The translations under genes and the position numbers were made by a program. Below the pieces are notes generated by a model. That model searched no databases. It worked only from the letters and a program-made list of their open reading frames with translations, and was not told where the DNA came from. From NCBI GenBank assembly GCA_014381545.1, contig JACNLL010000089.1:1-41839 (forward strand): a stretch of 41,839 nucleotides of DNA, read 5' to 3'. Each line of letters opens with the position of its first letter. Position 1 is the first letter of the stretch. Source of the DNA: Candidatus Desulfaltia bathyphila. Lineage in GTDB: Bacteria; Desulfobacterota; Desulfobacteria; Desulfobacterales; ETH-SRB1. Below, in pieces: positions 7,295 to 41,839 of this stretch.

Positions 7295-7328
7295 TAATAT
7301 TGATACTATAAATGGAGGATTGATCAAG

Positions 7329-32569: not shown

Positions 32570-33859
32570 ATGCATCTAAAAAGTTCTTATACTAATTGTA
32601 TCAAGGCCATGTACAGCCTCAGAAGGTTTGGGATAAAATTCGGCCTTTTTAACATCGCAAGTATCTTAAAAAGACTAAATAATCCGCAAAACGGTTTTTC
32701 ATGCATACATATAGCCGGAACAAACGGAAAAGGATCAATCGCCTCCGCTCTTTCCTCAATTCTGCAATTATCCGGATATAAAGTCGGCCTATATACTTCA
32801 CCTCACCTTGTAAAGTTTAATGAAAGAATCCGAATAAACAACCTCCCTGTCTCAGACAAAAAAGTTGTAGAATCTTATAAGGCTGTAAATAAGGTTATAC
32901 AAAACGACCTTGAAGCAACCTTTTTTGAATTAACAACCGCAATGGCCCTTTATGAATTCAACAGGCAAAAGGTTGACTGGGCTGTTATAGAAGCAGGCAT
33001 GGGAGGAAGGCTTGATGCAACAAATATCATAAAACCGGTCATTTCTATAATATCCAATATATCTGTTGAACACAAAAAATATTTGGGAAGCACCGTAGCA
33101 CAAATAGCAGGTGAAAAAGGAGGAATAATAAAAAAATCGGTTCCTGTTATTACCGGCGTAAAACAAAACAAGGCAATTTTGGTGTTAAAAAAGATGGCCG
33201 CAAAACAATCCGCCCCTTTTTATCGGTTTGGAGATGCCTTCAGGGTTAGAAGGAGCAAAAACGGAACTTTTACATATTTTGGAATCGACACAGTATGGAG
33301 AAATATGCATACAGGTCTGCTTGGCAATCACCAGGTTGACAATGCAGCCATTGTCCTTGCCGCATGCGAAATACTCAACCAGAACAAAACAAACCTTTCC
33401 TTCCAGAATATTAAACAGGGCCTGGCACAAAACAGATGGCCCGGAAGACTGGAAATAGTCTCCTCCTCTCCACTTATCCTCCTTGACGGAGCACATAATT
33501 TAATCGCCACCCGCTGCCTGGCAAAATTTCTGTCCGAAAATCCGGCTAAGCGGAAGATAACACTTGTCACAGGCATACTAAACGACAAACCCTATGCTGC
33601 AATGCTTGCCTGTCTTCTCCCTCTTTGCAGCAAGGCAATATTAACCCGCCCTAAGATCGATCGGGCTCTATCTCCGGAAAGATTATTCCCGGCAGCAAAG
33701 AAAATCATTCAGGACATAGAGATTATCCCTGACGTCGGCAAAGCCATTAAATACGCAATTAAAACAACATCCGTTAATGATGCAATCTGCATCGCCGGCT
33801 CTCTATACCTTGTCGGAGAAGCAAAAGAGGCGCTTGACTTATCAGCATTAATTAAATAA
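32570..33859 (+). CDS. folC: Folylpolyglutamate/dihydrofolate synthase FolC
   Basis: This Mur-ligase-family enzyme glutamylates folates. The 429 residues start with YSLRRFGIKFGL. The P-loop is HIAGTNGKGSIASALS, followed by the ligase motif GLYTSPHLVKFNERIRI and AGMGGRLDATN. The C-terminal domain includes LLDGAHN. The ATG at 32570 is just past the rpsU terminator and has no clear ribosome-binding site, but the length fits the family. It ends 12 nt before the tRNA-Arg gene. Confidence 0.92.
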   Translation: MHLKSSYTNCIKAMYSLRRFGIKFGLFNIASILKRLNNPQNGFSCIHIAGTNGKGSIASALSSILQLSGYKVGLYTSPHLVKFNERIRINNLPVSDKKVVESYKAVNKVIQNDLEATFFELTTAMALYEFNRQKVDWAVIEAGMGGRLDATNIIKPVISIISNISVEHKKYLGSTVAQIAGEKGGIIKKSVPVITGVKQNKAILVLKKMAAKQSAPFYRFGDAFRVRRSKNGTFTYFGIDTVWRNMHTGLLGNHQVDNAAIVLAACEILNQNKTNLSFQNIKQGLAQNRWPGRLEIVSSSPLILLDGAHNLIATRCLAKFLSENPAKRKITLVTGILNDKPYAAMLACLLPLCSKAILTRPKIDRALSPERLFPAAKKIIQDIEIIPDVGKAIKYAIKTTSVNDAICIAGSLYLVGEAKEALDLSALIK

Positions 33860-33871
33860 TTATTATTATGT

Positions 33872-33947
33872 GCGCCCGTAGCTCAGGGGATAGAGCGTCA
33901 GCCTCCGGAGCTGAAAGCCGCTGGTTCAAATCCAGCCGGGCGCGCCA
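33872..33947 (+). tRNA. tRNA-Arg (anticodon CCG)
   Basis: It is a 76-nt cloverleaf. The acceptor GCGCCCG pairs with CGGGCGC, with G discriminator and encoded CCA. The D arm is GCTC/GAGC. The anticodon stem is TCAGC/GCTGA with loop CTCCGGA, placing CCG at 34-36. The T arm is GCTGG-TTCAAAT-CCAGC. Its 3' 45 nt plus 4 downstream nt recur exactly at 34725-34773. Confidence 0.95.
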
Positions 33948-33950
33948 TTT

Positions 33951-33990
33951 TGTTATTTTAAAAAATAGTGAATGTTCACAGACTAATCGT
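33951..33990 (+). repeat. 40-nt repeat, copy 1 (next to tRNA-Arg)
   Basis: TGTTATTTTAAAAAATAGTG followed by AATGTTCACAGACTAATCGT. It matches 34929-34968 at 37 of 40 positions. Copy 1 lies between the tRNA and the brnT promoter; copy 2 borders the first integron-like cassette. Confidence 0.6.
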
Positions 33991-34029
33991 GGGCACATGA
34001 ATACCTTCCTCATCTCTCCAATAAAAAGT

Positions 34030-34058
34030 TTGACATGTATATTATAGTCATATACGAT
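34030..34058 (+). promoter_or_regulatory. Promoter of brnTA with overlapping palindrome
   Basis: TTGACA (34030-34035) and TACGAT (34053-34058) are 17 bp apart. Between and overlapping them is an inverted repeat, GTATAT at 34037-34042 and ATATAC at 34050-34055. BrnA-type antitoxins repress their own promoter, so this palindrome is a candidate operator. Confidence 0.55.
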
Positions 34059-34066
34059 TATTATTA

Positions 34067-34366
34067 ATGGAAAAGGAATTTATACATTTTGTCGGTTTCC
34101 AGTGGGACCAAGGCAATATCGATAAAAACCTTATCAAGCATGAGGTCGAAAACTGGGAATGTGAGCAGATATTTTTTAATAGACCTCTTCTTGTTCTTGA
34201 TGATCCAAAACACTCAATCTCTGAAAAACGCTGGGCTGCATTTGGCAAAACAGATGCTGATCGTCTTCTTGTCGTCATATTCACAAAAAGGGATAACTCA
34301 ATTAGAGTCATTTCCGCCAGGGAGATGAATAAGAAAGAGAGGAAATTTTACGATGAAAAAGGATAA
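34067..34366 (+). CDS. brnT: BrnT family toxin
   Basis: The protein has 99 residues and matches the BrnT ribonuclease toxin family (RelE-like fold). Family segments are FQWDQGNIDKNLIKHEVE, PLLVLDDPKHSISEKRWAAFG, LLVVIFTKRDNSIRVISAREM and NKKERKFYDE. Toxin precedes antitoxin, as usual for brnTA. It overlaps brnA by 14 nt. The start is the ATG at 34067, 8 nt after the -10 box, so the leader would be very short. The pair lies between two copies of the tRNA-Arg 3' end. Confidence 0.9.
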   Translation: MEKEFIHFVGFQWDQGNIDKNLIKHEVENWECEQIFFNRPLLVLDDPKHSISEKRWAAFGKTDADRLLVVIFTKRDNSIRVISAREMNKKERKFYDEKG

Positions 34367-34679
34367 AACAATACCTGTTTTTAAGAATGAGGATGAGGAG
34401 CGAGAATTCTGGGCCACTCATTCTCCACTTGATTATTTTGATACAAAAGATTTCAAGAAAGCTTCTTTCCCTAAATTAAAACCATCAGTAAAATCGATAT
34501 CGATTCGGCTCCCAAAGGATATGCTTGCTGAACTAAAGACCATTGCAAATAAAAAAGATGTGCCTTATCAGAGTTTGGCAAAAATCTACCTTGCCAGACA
34601 AATTTCTTTAGAGCGTGGCCTATTTCGAATCACCCGGAAAAAAGGGAAAAGGAGAGTAGGTGACCGACATGCCACTTGA
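34353..34679 (+). CDS. brnA: BrnA / CopG-type antitoxin
   Basis: The protein has 108 residues. The N-terminal part, NEDEEREFWATHSPLDYFD, is the toxin-binding segment typical of these antitoxins. SVKSISIRLPKDMLAELKTIAN is a ribbon-helix-helix DNA-binding domain, followed by PYQSLAKIYLARQI. It probably neutralises BrnT and represses the promoter at 34030-34058. The gene ends 45 nt before the orphan tRNA fragment. Confidence 0.88.
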   Translation: MKKDKTIPVFKNEDEEREFWATHSPLDYFDTKDFKKASFPKLKPSVKSISIRLPKDMLAELKTIANKKDVPYQSLAKIYLARQISLERGLFRITRKKGKRRVGDRHAT

Positions 34680-34724
34680 GCCGATTCCTAAAAGGCTAAC
34701 GCATTTCGGAAACGGCTCAGTAGG

Positions 34725-34773
34725 CTCCGGAGCTGAAAGCCGCTGGTTCAAATCCAGCCGGGCGCGCCATTTT
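34725..34773 (+). repeat. Orphan 3' fragment of tRNA-Arg (att-like direct repeat)
   Basis: It is identical to 33903-33951 over 49 nt. The upstream sequence does not complete a tRNA. The following 155 nt (34774-34928) are very AT-rich and hold an AACTTGAT/ATCAAGTT stem near 34880-34915 but no gene. Confidence 0.85.
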
Positions 34774-34928
34774 ATCATTGATAAGAAATTCTTTAAAACT
34801 ATTTCAATTATTTTTTTCACAAGATTTTTTTGTCAAATAAATACTTATACGAATCAGTTTTTTATAATTATTTCGCAATAACAACTTGATTAAATATCAA
34901 TTAGTTATCAAGTTAAATATATAATAAT

Positions 34929-34968
34929 TGTTATTCTAAAAAATACTGAATGTTCACAGACTAATTGT
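34929..34968 (+). repeat. 40-nt repeat, copy 2 (left border of cassette array)
   Basis: It matches 33951-33990 at 37 of 40 positions and ends 1 nt before the first cassette begins. It could be part of an attI-like recombination site or promoter region, or the end of a decayed attC. Neither can be decided from the sequence. Confidence 0.5.
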
Positions 34969-34969
34969 T

Positions 34970-35588
34970 TTAGCTGCATAAAGAGAAGCTCATGAATATT
35001 ATAAAAAAGCTATTTAAAAGAAAGAAAAAATCAAACGCCAAGGTTCAAGAAGACAATAATCTTGAAAAATTCATTACATATTTTGAATCATGCGATGGAA
35101 ATCAAATTAACAATCTAAAGAAATTTCAAAATATCCTAAAAAATCAACCGTCAACAAAATCTGAAATAATTCATGAGTTCATTGAATCAGGAATTGAATA
35201 TTCCAAAGATAAAAAGTATGAAAAAATCGTTAATGAATATGGTGAAGCCTTAATGGAAGCCACCGAACTTAATAGAAGAAAAGTGGAAGAATATAGTAAA
35301 AATATCAATCGAGATTCAATAAACGAACTTGCGGATAAGAAGGCTATTTTCTACCATTTACAGAATAAATTCGATATTCGTTTACTGCCATATGATAAGA
35401 ATACTATTAAAGAAGCAATCGAATCGCTCATTCAGGATGAAACAGATGTAAAGAAAATAGAGCAACTAAAAGTAGGGCTGTCATACCTTGATGATTTTAT
35501 TGACTTTAGTCAATTTGGCCCATAATGGCAGCTAACCATTTAATAAACCCGACCGGGCGATAAAACGTCCGGCCGGCCGGTTTGTTGG
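34970..35588 (+). mobile_element. Integron-like gene cassette 1
   Basis: The cassette starts TTAGCTGC (34970-34977) and the R'' arm of its own attC contains the exact reverse complement GCAGCTAA (35528-35535). It holds a single ORF that begins 22 nt from the left edge, as in typical cassettes, and a terminal attC. Confidence 0.7.
34992..35525 (+). CDS. Cassette 1 protein, unknown function
   Basis: I do not recognise this 177-residue protein. It starts with a very basic segment (MNIIKKLFKRKKKSNAK) and then is helical and strongly charged (LEKFITYFESCDGNQINNLKKF), with no membrane span and no catalytic motif. The last residues DDFIDFSQFGP are acidic and aromatic. GAGAAG lies just before the ATG. 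Base composition is much more AT-rich than the chromosomal genes to the left, consistent with acquisition. It stands alone in its cassette. Confidence 0.65.
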   Translation: MNIIKKLFKRKKKSNAKVQEDNNLEKFITYFESCDGNQINNLKKFQNILKNQPSTKSEIIHEFIESGIEYSKDKKYEKIVNEYGEALMEATELNRRKVEEYSKNINRDSINELADKKAIFYHLQNKFDIRLLPYDKNTIKEAIESLIQDETDVKKIEQLKVGLSYLDDFIDFSQFGP

Positions 35589-35594
35589 TTAGGA
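35530..35594 (+). other. attC-like site of cassette 1
   Basis: R''-like AGCTAAC (35530-35536) and R'-like GTTAGGA (35588-35594) bound an imperfect palindrome: the left arm CCATTTAATAAACCCGACCG can fold against the right arm CGGCCGGCCGGTTTGTTGG. It begins 4 nt after the cassette 1 stop codon. Confidence 0.68.
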
Positions 35595-36367
35595 AAACAA
35601 GAAAGGGGAATAATAAAATGAAAGAAGCATACATCAGATTTATGGCACCAGTAATCCCTCAAACCGCAAATGCTCTATTTCAAATTATTGACGCGAAATT
35701 GAAACAAAAGATAGAAAGGCTTCATGTTATGATTTCTTCTCCTGGAGGGTCTGTTTTCCATGGCTTGTCAGTACACAACTTTTTGAAAGGTGCCCCGATT
35801 GAAGTCTACACCTACAATTTTGGAAGCGTAGATTCAATAGGCGTTGTGATTTTCTGTGCAGGAGACAGACGGTTTTCGGTACCTCATGCTCGTTTTCTTA
35901 TTCACGGTGTGCAAATCAACTTCCAAGGAAATCACTCGCTGGATGAGAAAGGATTGGAGGAGAAGCTGAAAGGTTTGCAGATTGACTATCAGAACATAGC
36001 AAGAGTCATCGCTGATACCGTCCAAAAGCCTGCGCACAAAGTTCAAGACGACATGAATAACCGGACTACACTAACTCCTCAGGAGGCCAAAAACTATGGT
36101 CTTGTGCACGAAATCAAACCTGATCTCTTTCCTATTGGTGCGGATTTGTCAGTCGTGGGCGAAAGTGTCTCACAGCCTCAGCAATTCCAGGTTCAGGTCC
36201 CGCAACCGGGCATGCCTGTTCCCCAAGTCAGGCATATGACGGCTCCAGATGTCAAAGCCTTCACACAGTCGGCAAGCCTTCACTATGGTACTTCTTTTGA
36301 GACGGTTTCCTAACATGCGCCTGGACGCAGACGGGCTAAAAAACGCGCCCGCTGGTCAAGCGCGTCG
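35589..36367 (+). mobile_element. Integron-like gene cassette 2
   Basis: The first 8 nt, TTAGGAAA (35589-35596), are the exact reverse complement of TTTCCTAA in the R'' region of its own attC (36306-36313). It holds one ORF starting 29 nt in. Confidence 0.72.
35618..36313 (+). CDS. ClpP-like serine protease (cassette 2)
   Basis: The 231-residue protein has the ClpP/crotonase fold motifs: HVMISSPGGSVFHGLSVHNFL (the SPGG turn), then VDSIGVVIFCAGDRRFSVPHARFLIHG. The nucleophile is S73 in DSIG, the base H96 in LIHG and the acid D145 in VQDDM, followed by LTPQEAKNYGLVHEI, all aligning with the ClpP triad. The C-terminal ~55 residues are Pro/Gln/Val-rich (QPQQFQVQVPQPGMPVPQV) and not part of ClpP. 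No Clp ATPase is nearby. The ATG at 35618 (AAGGGGAA upstream) is preferred to the in-frame start at 35582. The stop codon overlaps attC R''. Confidence 0.85.
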   Translation: MKEAYIRFMAPVIPQTANALFQIIDAKLKQKIERLHVMISSPGGSVFHGLSVHNFLKGAPIEVYTYNFGSVDSIGVVIFCAGDRRFSVPHARFLIHGVQINFQGNHSLDEKGLEEKLKGLQIDYQNIARVIADTVQKPAHKVQDDMNNRTTLTPQEAKNYGLVHEIKPDLFPIGADLSVVGESVSQPQQFQVQVPQPGMPVPQVRHMTAPDVKAFTQSASLHYGTSFETVS

Positions 36368-36373
36368 TTATGT
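36308..36373 (+). other. attC-like site of cassette 2
   Basis: R'' TCCTAAC (36308-36314) and R' GTTATGT (36367-36373). The arms ATGCGCCTGGACGCAGACGGGC and GCCCGCTGGTCAAGCGCGTC-GTTATG fold into a GC-rich imperfect hairpin with a TAAAAAACGC loop, the usual attC form. Confidence 0.72.
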
Positions 36374-36401
36374 GTCGTCAAAAACAATTTGGTGTTTTTA
36401 A

Positions 36402-37241
36402 ATGAAAAGAAGGTTGGAAAATATAATTGAAGAGAAATTGATAGCAAGCAGTTTGTGGCGCAATGAAATCGAACGGGACTGCAAAAATCAAAACGTATTT
36501 CTTGCAATCAGAGATAATCGCTTCGATCTGTATCATAATGGCGGGAAACTCTTTTCCTACGATCTCATTGGATTTAAAACTCACCTGAAATATGCTTCAG
36601 TGATTACCGAAAGCGAGAAGGATTATCTTACTGAATCAGAATTATCAGCTTATAAATTGGCTTCTAACTTTGAAAATAATTATCAGAGAATCAAAGAAAA
36701 TTGTTCCAACTATTCAGGGATAGAGGCTTTTGGTGTGTCGGAACTATATCACAGACACTCATACTTATCGAATAGCAATATTATCGTTTTGGATATTGAA
36801 GTTTCATTTGAATCACTGAATGAAAGAAACAATCAAGATAGAATTGACATTTTGCTATATAATAAAGACTCAAGAACTCTGCAATTTGTTGAGGCTAAGC
36901 ATTTCTCAAATAAAGAGATATGGTCACGGAAAACTCCAAAAGTGATAAGTCAAATAAAAAGATATGAAATGCAAATAGCAAGACGAAAAGCAGAAATGCT
37001 TTCAGAATACACTGAATATGTAAAAATTATTAACGGAATTTTTAATCTATCACTTCCCGAACCCAAAATTATTGAAGACAAGGTTACACTATTGATTTTC
37101 GGTTTTGATAATGACCAAAAGAATGGCAGATTGAAAAAGTTGATCACAAAAAACAAAGAATATACAGGCATAAAAAATTACTCAATCGGAAACATAAAGA
37201 AAGTAGTGCCAGGCAATCTTTGGAAAGCAAAGGCTTTGTGA
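36402..37241 (+). CDS. PD-(D/E)XK nuclease-like protein (cassette 3)
   Basis: The 279-residue protein is not recognised as a named family. Residues ~145-190 show a PD-(D/E)XK core: D149 in DRIDILLYN, then E164 and K166 in FVEAKHF, then Q184-x3-Y188 in SQIKRYE, the QxxxY helix of RecB/Cas4-type nucleases. The acidic strand LDIEVSFE (~130-137) precedes it. The N-terminal 110 residues have no known motif and may recognise the target. It overlaps the next gene by 1 nt (TGATG), so the two are coupled. Low-GC, with no homology to its neighbours on the chromosome. Confidence 0.7.
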   Translation: MKRRLENIIEEKLIASSLWRNEIERDCKNQNVFLAIRDNRFDLYHNGGKLFSYDLIGFKTHLKYASVITESEKDYLTESELSAYKLASNFENNYQRIKENCSNYSGIEAFGVSELYHRHSYLSNSNIIVLDIEVSFESLNERNNQDRIDILLYNKDSRTLQFVEAKHFSNKEIWSRKTPKVISQIKRYEMQIARRKAEMLSEYTEYVKIINGIFNLSLPEPKIIEDKVTLLIFGFDNDQKNGRLKKLITKNKEYTGIKNYSIGNIKKVVPGNLWKAKAL

Positions 37242-38545
37242 TGAACTTTCAAATTCACAGGGGTACAAAAGAAATTGGAGGTTCCTGTGTTGAGATTTGG
37301 ACGCAATCAACACGGGTAGTTGTTGATTTAGGAATGCCCTTGGTAAATCCCGATAAAACGCAATTTGACTCAAAAACCATTAAAAACTTATCAGTAAATG
37401 AGCTGATTAAAAGAGGAACGCTTCCCAATATTAAGGGGCTTTATGAAAAGAAAGGCGAGACAGCCTTGGTTTTATCTCACGCCCATCAGGACCATTTTGG
37501 ATTTCTAAAATATGTAAATGAAACATGCAGAATCTATCTGGGAAGAGCTACAAAGAAACTAATAGAAATAACAAGTATTTTTACAAACCAAGATTGGAAA
37601 ATTTCAAATTTACAGCATTTTGAATCAGGGGTGCCATTTTTTATTGGGGATATTGAAGTCACACCATACTTGATGGATCATTCTGCATTTGATTCATATG
37701 CTTTTTTAATAAAAGCAAATGGGAAATCATTATTTTATAGCGGAGATTTTCGGATACACGGTAGAAAAACAAAAGCGTTTGATTGGTTCAGCCACAACAC
37801 AGAAAGGAATGTTGACTACTTATTGCTTGAAGGAACAAGTATTGGTCGAGTTGATAAATATTTCCCCACCGAAAGCGAAATAGAAACAGAAATTGTGAAT
37901 ACCTTCAAGCAGAGCAAGGGGATTAATCTTATATACACATCAGGTCAAAATATTGATCGGCTCGTTTCAATTTATAGGGCTTGTAAGAGGACCGGAAAAA
38001 CTCTCGCTATTGATTTTTATATTGCAAATATCCTGAGAGAATTGTCCGAATTTGGTGCTATTCCGTATCCTTCAAAAAGTTTTCCTGAAATAAAAGTATT
38101 TTTCCCTTATCGACTTTCTCGAATGATTAGTAACAAAGGGCAAGAAATGTTGTTGTACCGTTTCAAGGACTATAAAATTACAAAAGAACAAATTGGGGAA
38201 CAGGTCGATAAAACGGTAATGATTGTCCGTCCAAGTATGTTGAAAGACCTTGAATATGTTAAAGGTATTGAAAACGGCATTTTTATCTATTCGATGTGGG
38301 ATGGGTATAAAAAAGACAAAACCACAAAAGAGTTCATCGATTTACTTATTGGGAAAGGAATGACCGAAAAAACGATTCACACTAGCGGACATGCTGATAG
38401 GGCCGCACTCAAAAGAATGGTTGAAATTTTAAAGCCCAAGAAGCTTGTTCCAATTCATACGTTTGAAGGGGATGAATACCAAAAGATATTCACAGATAGC
38501 AACGTGGTTCGAATAAATGATAATGAAATCGTTTCTATAAACTGA
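37241..38545 (+). CDS. RNase J-like metallo-beta-lactamase protein (cassette 3)
   Basis: This 434-residue MBL-fold hydrolase starts FQIHRGTKEIGGSCVEIW. The metal-binding motif is SHAHQDH (H80, H82, D84, H85). H147 in MDHSAFDSY and D169 in YSGDFRIHG follow, and then the beta-CASP-like C-terminal motifs TSGHA (H384) and PIHTF (H406). These are the ligands of RNase J/CPSF-type nucleases. It is shorter than RNase J (~555) and lacks its C-terminal domain. The ATG at 37241 overlaps the nuclease stop. The gene ends 8 nt before the intron. RNA or DNA hydrolysis is inferred. Confidence 0.8.
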   Translation: MNFQIHRGTKEIGGSCVEIWTQSTRVVVDLGMPLVNPDKTQFDSKTIKNLSVNELIKRGTLPNIKGLYEKKGETALVLSHAHQDHFGFLKYVNETCRIYLGRATKKLIEITSIFTNQDWKISNLQHFESGVPFFIGDIEVTPYLMDHSAFDSYAFLIKANGKSLFYSGDFRIHGRKTKAFDWFSHNTERNVDYLLLEGTSIGRVDKYFPTESEIETEIVNTFKQSKGINLIYTSGQNIDRLVSIYRACKRTGKTLAIDFYIANILRELSEFGAIPYPSKSFPEIKVFFPYRLSRMISNKGQEMLLYRFKDYKITKEQIGEQVDKTVMIVRPSMLKDLEYVKGIENGIFIYSMWDGYKKDKTTKEFIDLLIGKGMTEKTIHTSGHADRAALKRMVEILKPKKLVPIHTFEGDEYQKIFTDSNVVRINDNEIVSIN

Positions 38546-38631
38546 AACACATAATCGGGTAGCCGGGGGTTTTTCTCCCCCAGCCCCCACAACACCCCGC
38601 ATGCGGGTCCGCACGGGGCGTTTCACAAAGC

Positions 38632-39972
38632 TTATCGGGCCGTAGCCGGATAGTGAATATTCACCCAAAGTTCTTTGATGGAGATTAACCCCTGTTTCTT
38701 CAACCACTGATTCGTCATGCCGGCCTGTGTTGCTAAAGTCCGTGCCAAATGCCACGGGCCCTTCCGGCTCATTCCAACTGAGATGGCGGCTTTAAGTGAA
38801 ACGCCGATACTTAAAAGATTTCTAACCTTTGTCCGGCAAAGTCGCCATTGTTTCCAATAGCACATACGCACTCGTCTGCGCAGCCAGTGGTCTAATTCAG
38901 GAATGGGCCGGTAATACTCCGAAATTCCAAAATAGTTCATCCAGCCACGGATATACTGCGTAAGTTTCTTAAAGCGATAATCCATCGAGACAAACCAACT
39001 GCGGCCTGTCAGACGTTTTACCTGCCTTATGAACTCCCGGAAGGCTTTATCAGACCACCTTATTTTGGTTCCCTTAAAGGTAAAACCAAGGAAAGTGATA
39101 CGGTCAGTCGGAGACACACTGCTTTTGCCTGCGTTAACCTTGAGCTTGAGCCTGCGTTCAAGAAATCTTTGAACACTGCACATAACACGTTCTCCGGCAC
39201 GCTGGCTTTTCACCAATACGATGAAGTCATCGGCATACCGGACAAACTTGTGACCACGCTTTTCCAGCTCTTTATCAAGATCATCCAACAGGATATTAGC
39301 AAGCAGGGGTGAAAGTGGGCCGCCTTGCGGAACGCCCATACGGGTGTTTTGAAGACGGCCATTTACTTTAACCCCGGCACGTAAATATTTTCCAATAAGG
39401 CGCAATAACCGTTTGTCATGAACTTTTCGCGCCACTTTGTGCATTAACACATCATGGTTTACGGTATCGAAAAATTTCGATAAGTCCATATCTACGGCTA
39501 TACGATAACCCTGCCGGATATATTCACGTACTTTAAACACTGCATCATGGGCAGATCGACCAGGCCTGAAACCATAACTAACATCCGAAAATTCAGGATC
39601 AAAAACTGGTGTCAAAACTCTGGCAATCGCCTGCTGAATCAGTCTGTCTAAAACGGTCGGAATACCCAAAGGCCGGGTTCCCCCGGTCGGCTTGGGTATC
39701 TCGACTCGCAAAACAGGTGAAGGCTCATAGGTGCCTTCCATTAAAGATTCACGGATGCTTTCCCATTTATCACGGGTAATGTCAGGAAACTCCTTGATGG
39801 AAATACCATCAACTCCGGGAGCTCCCTTGTTCGACTTGACCCGTTTCCATGCCAAATGCATGTTATCACGGGAAAGCGCCGGTTCCAAAAGGTTACTATT
39901 TGGGTCGGGCAATTCAATGACGTGCCGCATGTTCACTCCTCCGTTCGGATTCTTCATGTCATGAGAACTCAT
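38632..39972 (-). CDS. ltrA: Group II intron reverse transcriptase/maturase
   Basis: The 446-residue maturase contains the RT palm: AVDMDLSKFFDTV (D161, D163), GVPQGGPLSPLLANILL and YADD at 246-249. The maturase/thumb region includes LTQYIRGWMNYFGI. There is no HNH endonuclease domain, as expected for class IIC. The C-terminus WVNIHYPATAR is like that of attC-associated introns. AGGAG lies at ideal distance before the ATG at 39972. It promotes splicing and retrohoming of the surrounding intron. It appears intact. Confidence 0.93.
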   Translation of the reverse strand: MSSHDMKNPNGGVNMRHVIELPDPNSNLLEPALSRDNMHLAWKRVKSNKGAPGVDGISIKEFPDITRDKWESIRESLMEGTYEPSPVLRVEIPKPTGGTRPLGIPTVLDRLIQQAIARVLTPVFDPEFSDVSYGFRPGRSAHDAVFKVREYIRQGYRIAVDMDLSKFFDTVNHDVLMHKVARKVHDKRLLRLIGKYLRAGVKVNGRLQNTRMGVPQGGPLSPLLANILLDDLDKELEKRGHKFVRYADDFIVLVKSQRAGERVMCSVQRFLERRLKLKVNAGKSSVSPTDRITFLGFTFKGTKIRWSDKAFREFIRQVKRLTGRSWFVSMDYRFKKLTQYIRGWMNYFGISEYYRPIPELDHWLRRRVRMCYWKQWRLCRTKVRNLLSIGVSLKAAISVGMSRKGPWHLARTLATQAGMTNQWLKKQGLISIKELWVNIHYPATAR

Positions 39973-40553
39973 TAAGGCTCCTTTCCCTGCTTCATGTTCA
40001 GCCCTTCACCATGTCCCAACCATTACGTCGGGTGTTCGGCTACTATGGCCTATGCTGACTTCTGCCTGATCACTCTATGAGTTTCCTCATAAAGCGCTGT
40101 CCTCTGGTGCTTCAGCTCGCCATCCTGTTTAACTCCTCTTTGTTTTGTGCCTCGATATCAGGCGGGATGCTTTCCTGATACCGCCGGGACTTGGTTGACC
40201 GGTTGCCCCTGCCGGTAATTTCACTGGATAGATAGTTAAAACAACATTAAACTGCCATCTCAGGCAGATCTCCCCGGATAAGGACATGAACTTTCACTGC
40301 ACAACCGCCTCATTTACCGTGTCCCCTGAACTGCGGGGCTTTGTCATGTTGTGCTGACTTACCCCGGGGTGTTCGGCCTTGTATGAGATTTCTGTCCGTC
40401 GGCTCGCAGTTTTGCCGTAGACTTCCTCCAGACATTACCTCACGATAATGCCCTTGCCTTAAGCTAATAGTTTATGTTAAATGATTAATTTAACAGCAGT
40501 TCAGCTATAGGGGACTTACACCCCATAAGCTCATGCCCATGCCGGGCGTACAC
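39973..40553 (-). ncRNA. 5' ribozyme domains of the group IIC intron
   Basis: About 580 nt without a gene between the intron's 5' end and the maturase start. It contains paired segments expected of domains I-III (for example GGGGACTTACACCCC near 40510 and CCGAACACCCCGGGG around 40360-40375). The structure was judged by eye only. Confidence 0.6.
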
Positions 40554-40618
40554 AAATCACTGCACTGGATTTTTACTCCGCTGCGCTCCGTAAAAACCAG
40601 TGAGTTCAAACGTTGAGC

Positions 40619-41839
40619 CTGTCGAAAAAGTCCTTGAACAACCTTTTAATAGTTGAAACAAAGCCGTACTGTGGTATACTGCTGTTACTGTCATTACGAA
40701 TTAACCAATGGAGAACCACAGATGGCGCGATACAAATATTACAACTACGATCAGCTGATGATGGTGCCTGTATCCTTAGAGGAACAACTGATACCAGGCA
40801 CATTGGAATATGCGATACATCATGTTGTTGAAGAACGCCTTGACATGAGCATGTTTGACGATCGTTATCGCAATGATGAAACGGGTCGCAAAGCGATAGA
40901 TCCGAAGGTGCTGATAAAGATTGTGCTCTTTGGCTATTCACGGGGGCTGATCTCATCACGATCTTTGGAGCGAGCCTGTAAGGAAAATATTACGTTTATG
41001 GCTCTTTCCTGTGGACAAAGACCTGATCACAGTACAATCGCGGCCTTTGTATCATCATTAGATAAAGAGATTGAGCCGTTGTTCACCAAAGTACTGCTAA
41101 TTTGCGATGAAGAGGATTTGCTGGGTGGCACTCATTTCAGTTTGGACGGATTAAAACTTTCCTCGAATGCTGCAAAGGAGTGGAGTGGTAAGTTTGAGGA
41201 TTTGAAAAAGAAACAGGAAGCGCTGGAAAGGAAAGTGAAAGAGGCTGTTCGTGAGCACCGAGCATCAGACAAACAAGAACTCGACAGGTCTTCTTCAGAT
41301 CGGAAACGTCAGGAGAAGCGGATCAAGGGGCTGAAACAGAAAGCGGAATGCATTGAGAAGTTTCTTTCTGAAAACGAACCGAAGATTGGTTCCAGAGGCA
41401 AGGAGATCCAGAGTAATGTAACAGACAATGAATCAGCAAAAATGGCCACTTCACACGGTGTATTACAAGGCTATAACGCCAACGCAGTAGTTGATGAGAA
41501 ACAACAGGTAGTGTTACATGCAGAGGCTTTCGGAAAAGGGGAAGACGCCTCAAGCATGGAGCCGATGCTGGATGGAACTAAGGATAAACTGAAAGCAATT
41601 GGTTGTAAAGACCCTTTGAAGGATAAACAAGTCAGCGCTGACACCGGCTATTACAGTGTAAAAAATCTCGAGGCATGTAAGAATCATGAGGTTGATGCTT
41701 ACGTGCCGGATCCTCAGTTCAGAAAACGGGATGTTCGTTTTGCAGACGCAGGTCGTCACCGCCGCCCTGTAGACAAGCGAAAAGCATATATAGGGGACGT
41801 TCTTCACATTATAAGTTGCTAATGGATGGCAGAAAGATT
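40619..41839 (+). mobile_element. IS1182-family insertion element, right part outside the window
   Basis: It is defined by its transposase. The left boundary is uncertain; I place it at the end of the attC R' (GTTGAGC, then CTGTCGAAAAAGTCC). The right end lies beyond 41839. It interrupts or forms the start of what would be cassette 4. Confidence 0.55.
40722..41822 (+). CDS. IS1182-family transposase, frameshifted near the 3' side
   Basis: The protein begins MARYKYYNYDQLMMVPVSLE, with DUF772-type N-terminal residues (RKAIDPKVLIKIVLFGYSRG). DDE acids are visible in THFSLDGLKL and SADTGYYS. A central coiled-coil, Lys/Glu-rich insertion is present at ~155-235. The frame ends at 41822 after QFRKRDVRFADAGRHRRPVDK. 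A different frame continues as RGRSSHYKLLMDGRK to the window edge, so a small indel near 41775 has probably split the gene. The third catalytic Glu would lie beyond. The ATG at 40722 with GGAG upstream is preferred to earlier in-frame codons. Confidence 0.8.
   Translation: MARYKYYNYDQLMMVPVSLEEQLIPGTLEYAIHHVVEERLDMSMFDDRYRNDETGRKAIDPKVLIKIVLFGYSRGLISSRSLERACKENITFMALSCGQRPDHSTIAAFVSSLDKEIEPLFTKVLLICDEEDLLGGTHFSLDGLKLSSNAAKEWSGKFEDLKKKQEALERKVKEAVREHRASDKQELDRSSSDRKRQEKRIKGLKQKAECIEKFLSENEPKIGSRGKEIQSNVTDNESAKMATSHGVLQGYNANAVVDEKQQVVLHAEAFGKGEDASSMEPMLDGTKDKLKAIGCKDPLKDKQVSADTGYYSVKNLEACKNHEVDAYVPDPQFRKRDVRFADAGRHRRPVDKRKAYIGDVLHIISC

Follow-up and report, generated by a model that had tools for sequence, protein, structure and literature searches.

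Can an array of integron cassettes stay in use when no integrase gene lies beside it? The question arises near the right-hand end of a 41,839-nucleotide stretch of Candidatus Desulfaltia bathyphila (contig JACNLL010000089.1, here C98; "the window" below is this whole stretch), one of the 107 contigs of a 2.07-Mb draft genome (G000). A first-pass annotation, made from the letters alone, had described at 34970-40618 an integron-type cassette array without a visible integrase, being either a cluster of attC sites lacking integron-integrases (CALIN) or the distal part of a larger integron. The array is real, as we could confirm, and the lack of an integrase was borne out, only a 17-codon stub of intI being present. 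CALIN was the better of the two options, but it passed over an attI and the intI stub at the head of the array, which went unnoticed together with a group IIC-attC intron. This is an integrase-less integron, and we infer, with a probability of about 0.6, that its attI is one of several solo attIs still used by a remote integrase in trans.

A decapitated integron in the window

The first-pass annotation had seen three units, each closed by an attC-like palindrome and each starting with 8 nt that pair with its own R'' side. The units and palindromes are there, attC3 ending at 40618, and all three 8-nt pairings are exact. The R' box motif ascribed to them holds less well: the palindromes stand, but, taken strictly, only the third R' (GTTGAGC) fits GTTRRRY. 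As an unbiased test, a covariance model, the check proposed at the time, was built from eight attC seeds of other contigs, none from the window, which were chosen by hand because their polarity and pairing were consistent; it searched the full 41,839 bp without filtering, at a cut-off of E<=10. The three named sites are the best three of the 12 matches, and each is a bottom-strand match, as expected of attCs. A near-identical attC in L101, without the intron and downstream of an intI, was kept out of the seeds, to make the test of attC3 independent of it. The fourth match (34663-34725, E 0.2), behind brnT/brnA, may be a decayed attC. Some attCs (L053, L062) match the model on both strands, so the model alone is insufficient for polarity. 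The seeds came from a hairpin chain scan (41 sequences, 531 kb), which was noisy, with 1,474 candidates, and from a stepwise walk from attI, the later steps of which were spurious and were disregarded.

Pairing between cassette start and R'' is complete in all three units: 9/9 in cassette 2, 9/9 in cassette 3 once the intron is removed, the rejoined R'' ACACATAAC being the exact complement of the start GTTATGTGT, and 8/8 in cassette 1 with a 2-nt offset, where an extra TT (34968-34969) separates the attI G (34967) from the paired start TTAGCTGC. As background, GTT.../...AAC 9-mer pairs lying 80-3,000 nt apart are perfect at the six free positions in 3 of 3,792 cases within 34901-40700, a count that includes the cassette-2 pair, and in 10 of 25,770 within 1-33000; cassettes 1 and 3 fall outside the pattern owing to the TT offset and the intron. 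Bottom-strand R''-L''-L'-R' hairpins and starts complementary to their own R'' mark this as an integron cassette array, and its having at least two attCs with no intI nearby marks it as a CALIN too. A complete integron would have an intI adjoining its attI, and within the window this place holds the 17-codon stub only.

Comparisons were made within a family set of 17 genomes, which includes Desulfobacteraceae bacterium Eth-SRB1 (G007), and a class-wide set of 241 genomes. The attI block ahead of cassette 1 (Table 1) aligns over 202 bp, at 92% identity, with the sequence next to the intact intI on contig C106 of the same genome; it is 89% identical to the attI of the Eth-SRB1 integron and 95% to that of genome G003 at the same locus. 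It is thus of the C106 type, being homologous to a site beside an intact intI and ending in G^TT. The first codons of intI lie in the outer part of the block, where tblastn with the C106 integrase (IntI) aligns CEKNN*NSFKEFLINDK with MKKNNSNSFKEFLINDK (82%, E 0.008). Because the block holds these 17 decayed codons, either intI was once here or its 5' end came with the attI; because both attI and codons sit in the window, the gene is lost rather than off the contig. The window array is a decapitated integron, with intI deleted and attI and cassettes kept.

Table 1. Features of the integron and its flanks, in window positions
Feature	Position	Strand	Remarks
folC, host	32570-33859		NCBIfam TIGR01499
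tRNA-Arg(CCG), host flank adjoining folC	33872..33947	+	
41-bp attI tail (truncated copy), directly after tRNA	33950..33990	+	93% to 34928-34968
brnT/brnA toxin-antitoxin pair	34067..34679	+	Pfam BrnT_toxin, CopG_antitoxin
Repeated 3' part of tRNA-Arg gene, joined to attI block	34722..34771	+	blastn self match 91%, 68 bp
intI remnant, first 17 codons	34771..34821	-	start codon lost, one stop
attI block	34771..34969	+	conserved core 34920-34969; cut expected after G34967
Cassette 1	34970..35594	+	177-aa open reading frame (ORF) 34992-35525, no family match, and attC1
attC1	35528-35594	+	attC model match 35530-35594, E 6.9e-4
Cassette 2	35589..36373	+	ClpP-like serine protease (likely ATG 35618 to 36313), PF00574 E 8e-27, and attC2
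attC2	36306-36373	+	attC model match 36308-36373, E 5.7e-4
Cassette 3	36368..38553	+	two ORFs and R'' part of attC3 (38547-38553)
Cassette 3, first ORF	36402-37241	+	279 aa, PD-(D/E)XK-like
Cassette 3, second ORF	37220-38545	+	441 aa, metallo-beta-lactamase (MBL)/beta-CASP, RNase J-like
Group IIC-attC intron, 1,998 nt	38554..40551	-	Rfam RF02001, RF01998, RF00029; reverse transcriptase (RT)/maturase ORF
Intron RT/maturase ORF, YADD	38632-39972	-	TIGR04416, 421 bits
attC3, remaining part (L'', L', R' GTTGAGC)	40552-40618	+	attC model match 40546-40618, E 3.5e-7
IS1182-type transposase ORF, contig end	40653..41822	+	NF033551, 190 bits, below cut-off 270

Solo attIs and the arrays behind them

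The genome carries seven attI sites on five contigs, two each on C98 and C89 and one each on C11, C71 (34 bp) and C106, the second C89 site, which has a small internal duplication, being counted once. An intI was found beside the C106 site only (19 kb of C71 examined). A 75-bp attI query found 20 matches in 8 of the 17 family genomes, and a 149-bp query, with at most three candidates scored per genome, matched 12 of the 241 class-wide genomes, with weak matches only (E 1.3e-4 to 8.4e-4) in the five that do not belong to the family. The aligned copies share the end ...CACAGACTAATTG^TT and then diverge. Among 11 copies, mean pairwise identity stands at 0.94 for the final 50 bp and at 0.88 for the preceding 84 bp, and it falls past GTT to 0.31 and then 0.23 in two 20-bp steps. 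Stubs of intI also stand beside the attIs of G003 (18 codons) and of Eth-SRB1 contig C40 (31 codons, on a contig of 1,330,458 bp), and a putative one of 14 codons in G010 (E 2.0).

Matches of the attC model with the right polarity follow the attI on C98, C106, C89 and C71 of this genome, in G003:C69 (E 0.011), in G006:C198, C71 and C259, in G002:C63 and at both Eth-SRB1 sites; G010 (L094), with attC matches of opposite polarity to its attI, was left out of the counts. We scored the start of the first cassette against its R'' in 12 attI arrays, taking the best of 13 shifts and bearing in mind that 3 of the 9 letters are consensus. Pairing reached 8 or 9 of 9 at shift 0 in four arrays (C106, G006:C71 with 9/9, G002:C63 with 8/9, and Eth-SRB1 C40) and 7/9 in Eth-SRB1 C1, and stayed at 6/9 or below in seven (the window, both C89 sites, C71, G003, G006:C198 and G006:C259). 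The low values of the window and G003 are explained by the TT shift in the former and an intron-split R'' in the latter, where a relative of the window intron interrupts the site; the G003 cassette starts GTTATATGT and the rejoined R'' ACATATAAC matches it 9/9. Among 18 later boundaries (one counted twice), 8 score 8 or 9 of 9 and 10 score 7 or less, the latter including the window's split attC3. The C40 array has four successive boundaries that score 9, 8, 9 and 9 of 9, the attC match at the fourth being weak (E 2.0), and a fifth that fails (4/9). Judged by these sequence features, solo attIs head proper cassette arrays.

Two pairs of genomes carry the attI at the same locus with different cassettes. 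G002:C63 and G006:C71 share 1,801 bp of upstream flank at 92% and, as a separate block, the last 255 bp, which include the junction of a dispersed repeat with an attI without intI, at 96%; in the 6 kb after G^TT, blastn (E<=1e-5) found no common piece longer than 60 bp. The window and G003 share the folC-tRNA region (2,039 bp at 90.5%) and the attI (201 bp at 95%), and after G^TT only two pieces, of 451 and 133 bp, which fall within the intron or on its borders. The attI tree groups the window with G003 (0.88), G002 with G006:C71 (0.93) and the two Eth-SRB1 copies with each other (0.96), suggesting that the first two pairs were inherited in place and that the Eth-SRB1 pair arose by a recent copy. 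G004:C91 has its solo attI off the G002/G006 locus, the ortholog of which is on C337.

The C106 IntI has an open frame of 427 aa from the first Met. Full-length integrases of its type (at least 80% identity) occur in two of the 17 family genomes, G000 and Eth-SRB1 (97%), and G001:C95 holds a fragment of 62 residues at 69%. Relative to its TIGR02249 match, the C106 integrase (L044:5934-7211) has an N-terminal extension of ~110 aa; long forms at 40-47% identity to it are found in Nitrospirae, Smithella and other metagenome-assembled genomes. Upstream regions of 13 other integrase genes, compared by BLAST with 53 loci, gave no comparable set of solo copies. The upstream region of the G001:C25 integrase has a 72-bp match (87.5%) in G000:C95 (L049:601-671), a contig that gave no intI match; this piece may be a solo attI that belongs to a second type of integrase.

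Several smaller observations concern these arrays. On C89 (L045, 4177-3020) the tandem attIs lie ~840 bp apart, and the duplication in the second is of ~22 bp; G006:C259 (L060) has three successive attI cores at 7305, 4636 and 3323, in cassette-length spacing and delta-attI-like. A ~120-bp dispersed intergenic repeat with a terminator-like hairpin (L054:6385-6507), widespread in these genomes, abuts the solo attIs of G002, G006 and G004. Pieces of 119-136 bp at 89-93% identity, probably long attCs, recur among the arrays of both Eth-SRB1 sites (L058, L059) and G006:C259 (L060), and resemble the homogeneous attCs typical of large chromosomal integrons.

Use in trans or a relic

In the scheme that we favour, intI was deleted at the window locus while attI and cassettes stayed, and the attIs of the C106 type, which are dispersed over several chromosomal sites, mostly without intI, would still be in use. 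A remote integrase, here most simply the intact C106 IntI, whose own attI matches that of the window, would act on these solo attIs in trans, folding attC bottom strands and integrating cassette circles at G^TT; a single integrase gene could in this way feed several cassette arrays per genome. The scheme is supported by the recurrence upstream of cassette 1 of the 200-bp block that stands beside intact intI in C106 and Eth-SRB1. Action on a separate molecule has a precedent in assays, as IntI used the attI of another molecule when intI1 and attI1 were on separate plasmids (described in part of PMC9668308).

The foremost rival, which we consider unlikely, is a frozen relic in which intI was deleted, the array has been unchanged since and the attI is no more than a fossil, a state known from many Xanthomonas pathovars. 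The decayed stub in the window fits this, as do the insertion sequence (IS) and the group II intron within the array. The window resembles the chromosomal integrons of Xanthomonas in being a fixed-locus array with intI broken or missing; strains there that share an intI lesion mostly have the same array, and additional CALINs were recognised from their attCs (sections of PMC12444791). G002 and G006 display the opposite pattern, an integrase-free junction in common with wholly different cassettes, and here, unlike in Xanthomonas, the attI copies themselves are dispersed. Because these two genomes share that junction and nothing common was found after G^TT, cassettes appear to have been exchanged without an intI in cis; our reading is that integrase loss probably preceded the split and that cassettes changed later. 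A fossil attI also sits poorly with the core being the best-conserved part of the solo copies (0.93 vs 0.87).

Homologous, RecA-type recombination between scattered attI repeats could instead have swapped whole arrays, and repeats of 136-200 bp at several loci, with 68 bp exactly common to the first C89 site and C11, offer substrate for it. We hold this to be improbable, as exact matches of the window copy to the three other copies compared in the genome reach 34-36 bp at most, similarity ends at the cut site, and in several arrays the first cassette pairs with its own R''. A CALIN formed by insertion at a chance attG-like site, with no attI, would account for the missing neighbouring intI and the extra TT before cassette 1, but is contradicted by the intI stub upstream and by the homology of the block around it to the attI next to an intact intI. 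The other first-pass option, the distal part of a larger integron with intI beyond 41839, draws on a contig that ends in an IS and an array that may continue rightward, and is contradicted just as firmly, since polarity puts intI on the left, where the integrase end lies within the window as attI, 17-codon stub and host genes (folC and tRNA-Arg) only.

Several points weigh against use in trans. The genomes are drafts. The C106-type intI of G006 is broken by a stop and a large internal deletion, and no close relative of the C106 integrase was found in G002, G003 or G004, so that the acting integrase in these four would be of another type or lost. No attC match follows the attI of G004:C91, or that of C11 within the 1.27 kb left on its contig, first-cassette pairing is poor (6/9 or below) at both C89 sites, C71, G006:C198 and G006:C259, and unit 1 of the window starts 2 nt off the register of the normal cut. 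The flank shared by G002 and G006 is discontinuous, ~0.9 kb in G002 and ~0.4 kb in G006 being mostly unshared between the blocks. Finally, the intI stubs at the folC-tRNA locus end at different codons (17 in the window, 20 in G003), so intI may have been lost only after the two arrays diverged.

A broader model, for which we would not quite offer even odds, is a distributed integron, in which one integrase gene serves many detached attIs, the arrays evolve independently and each solo attI is lasting and inherited by locus. CALINs have been proposed to be degraded integrons, and a large survey counted 2,961 of them against 2,760 complete integrons (parts of PMC9024848). The window is like a CALIN in having attC cassettes with no intI gene nearby, and unlike one in that it has a recognised attI and intI stub and that G002 and G006, with a common integrase-free attI junction, differ in cassettes. 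Because attIs outside class 1 are poorly described and go undetected by IntegronFinder (per the same portions of PMC9024848), dead leftovers and live sites are hard to separate. Here the attI is recognisable without its integrase and the related genomes are a natural experiment; if the trans model is true, a neighbouring intI is a misleading gauge of array activity. Short attI copies within arrays are known as delta-attI-type cassettes of class 1 and 2 integrons (excerpts of PMC12901181) and resemble 33950-33990, C89 and G006:C259, but those are fragments in mobile resistance integrons, whereas the main copies here measure 136-200 bp and occupy separate chromosomal loci. A genome with many solo attIs heading arrays appears unusual, and in the open-licence literature we found no paper on dispersed or solo attIs heading arrays.

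Intron, cassette genes and flanks

The palindrome closing the third unit exists, but it is interrupted, with its R'' at 38547-38553 on one side of the intron and the remainder at 40552-40618 on the other. Three Rfam matches to group II intron parts fall between 38554 and 40449, on the minus strand. The intron ends, ambiguous by 1 nt, were placed by the GUGYG...AY convention (from part of PMC7923331), and both coincide with those of a relative in L182. Across the junction the bottom strand reads TTTGT/TATGTGT, attC3 being cut at TTTGT/T. Group IIC-attC introns target TTGT/T in the R'' bottom strand of attC and lie opposite to the cassette genes (as portions of PMC7923331 describe), and the window intron does likewise. 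With its ribozyme parts, RT ORF and target, it is, as far as tested, an ordinary member of the group.

Functions of the cassette genes were taken from profiles and motifs. The 279-aa protein of cassette 3 has a weak HSDR_N_2 match, under its cut-off, and a RIDILL...VEAK motif that we take to be PD-(D/E)XK-like. A defence role for the cassette genes is a guess, and PADLOC found no defence family among the six proteins given to it. Matches to the MBL protein occur in 13 of the 241 genomes, its own included; one in G028:C17, the only such genome, has an attC match nearby. Relatives with these genes and no bounding palindromes had been named as evidence that would count against the array, a point that our data only touch: the gene pair of cassette 3 is present again in G013, in a 4.3-kb locus that gave no attC match, and the MBL relative in G001:C43 is the first ORF of at least 150 aa after an intI. 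A promoter consensus scan of 34600-36500 gave 8 promoter-like sites against 5.0 expected by shuffling.

At the right end, the IS1182-type transposase is probably shortened, its match stopping at 359 of 488 model positions; one relative, at 75% identity, matches most of the element. On the left, the 3' part of tRNA-Arg together with attI is present twice around brnT/brnA (33872-34771), a pair that is possibly an old cassette, and the 41-bp attI copy is apparently fused to the native sequence downstream of the tRNA at a common TTGTTATT.

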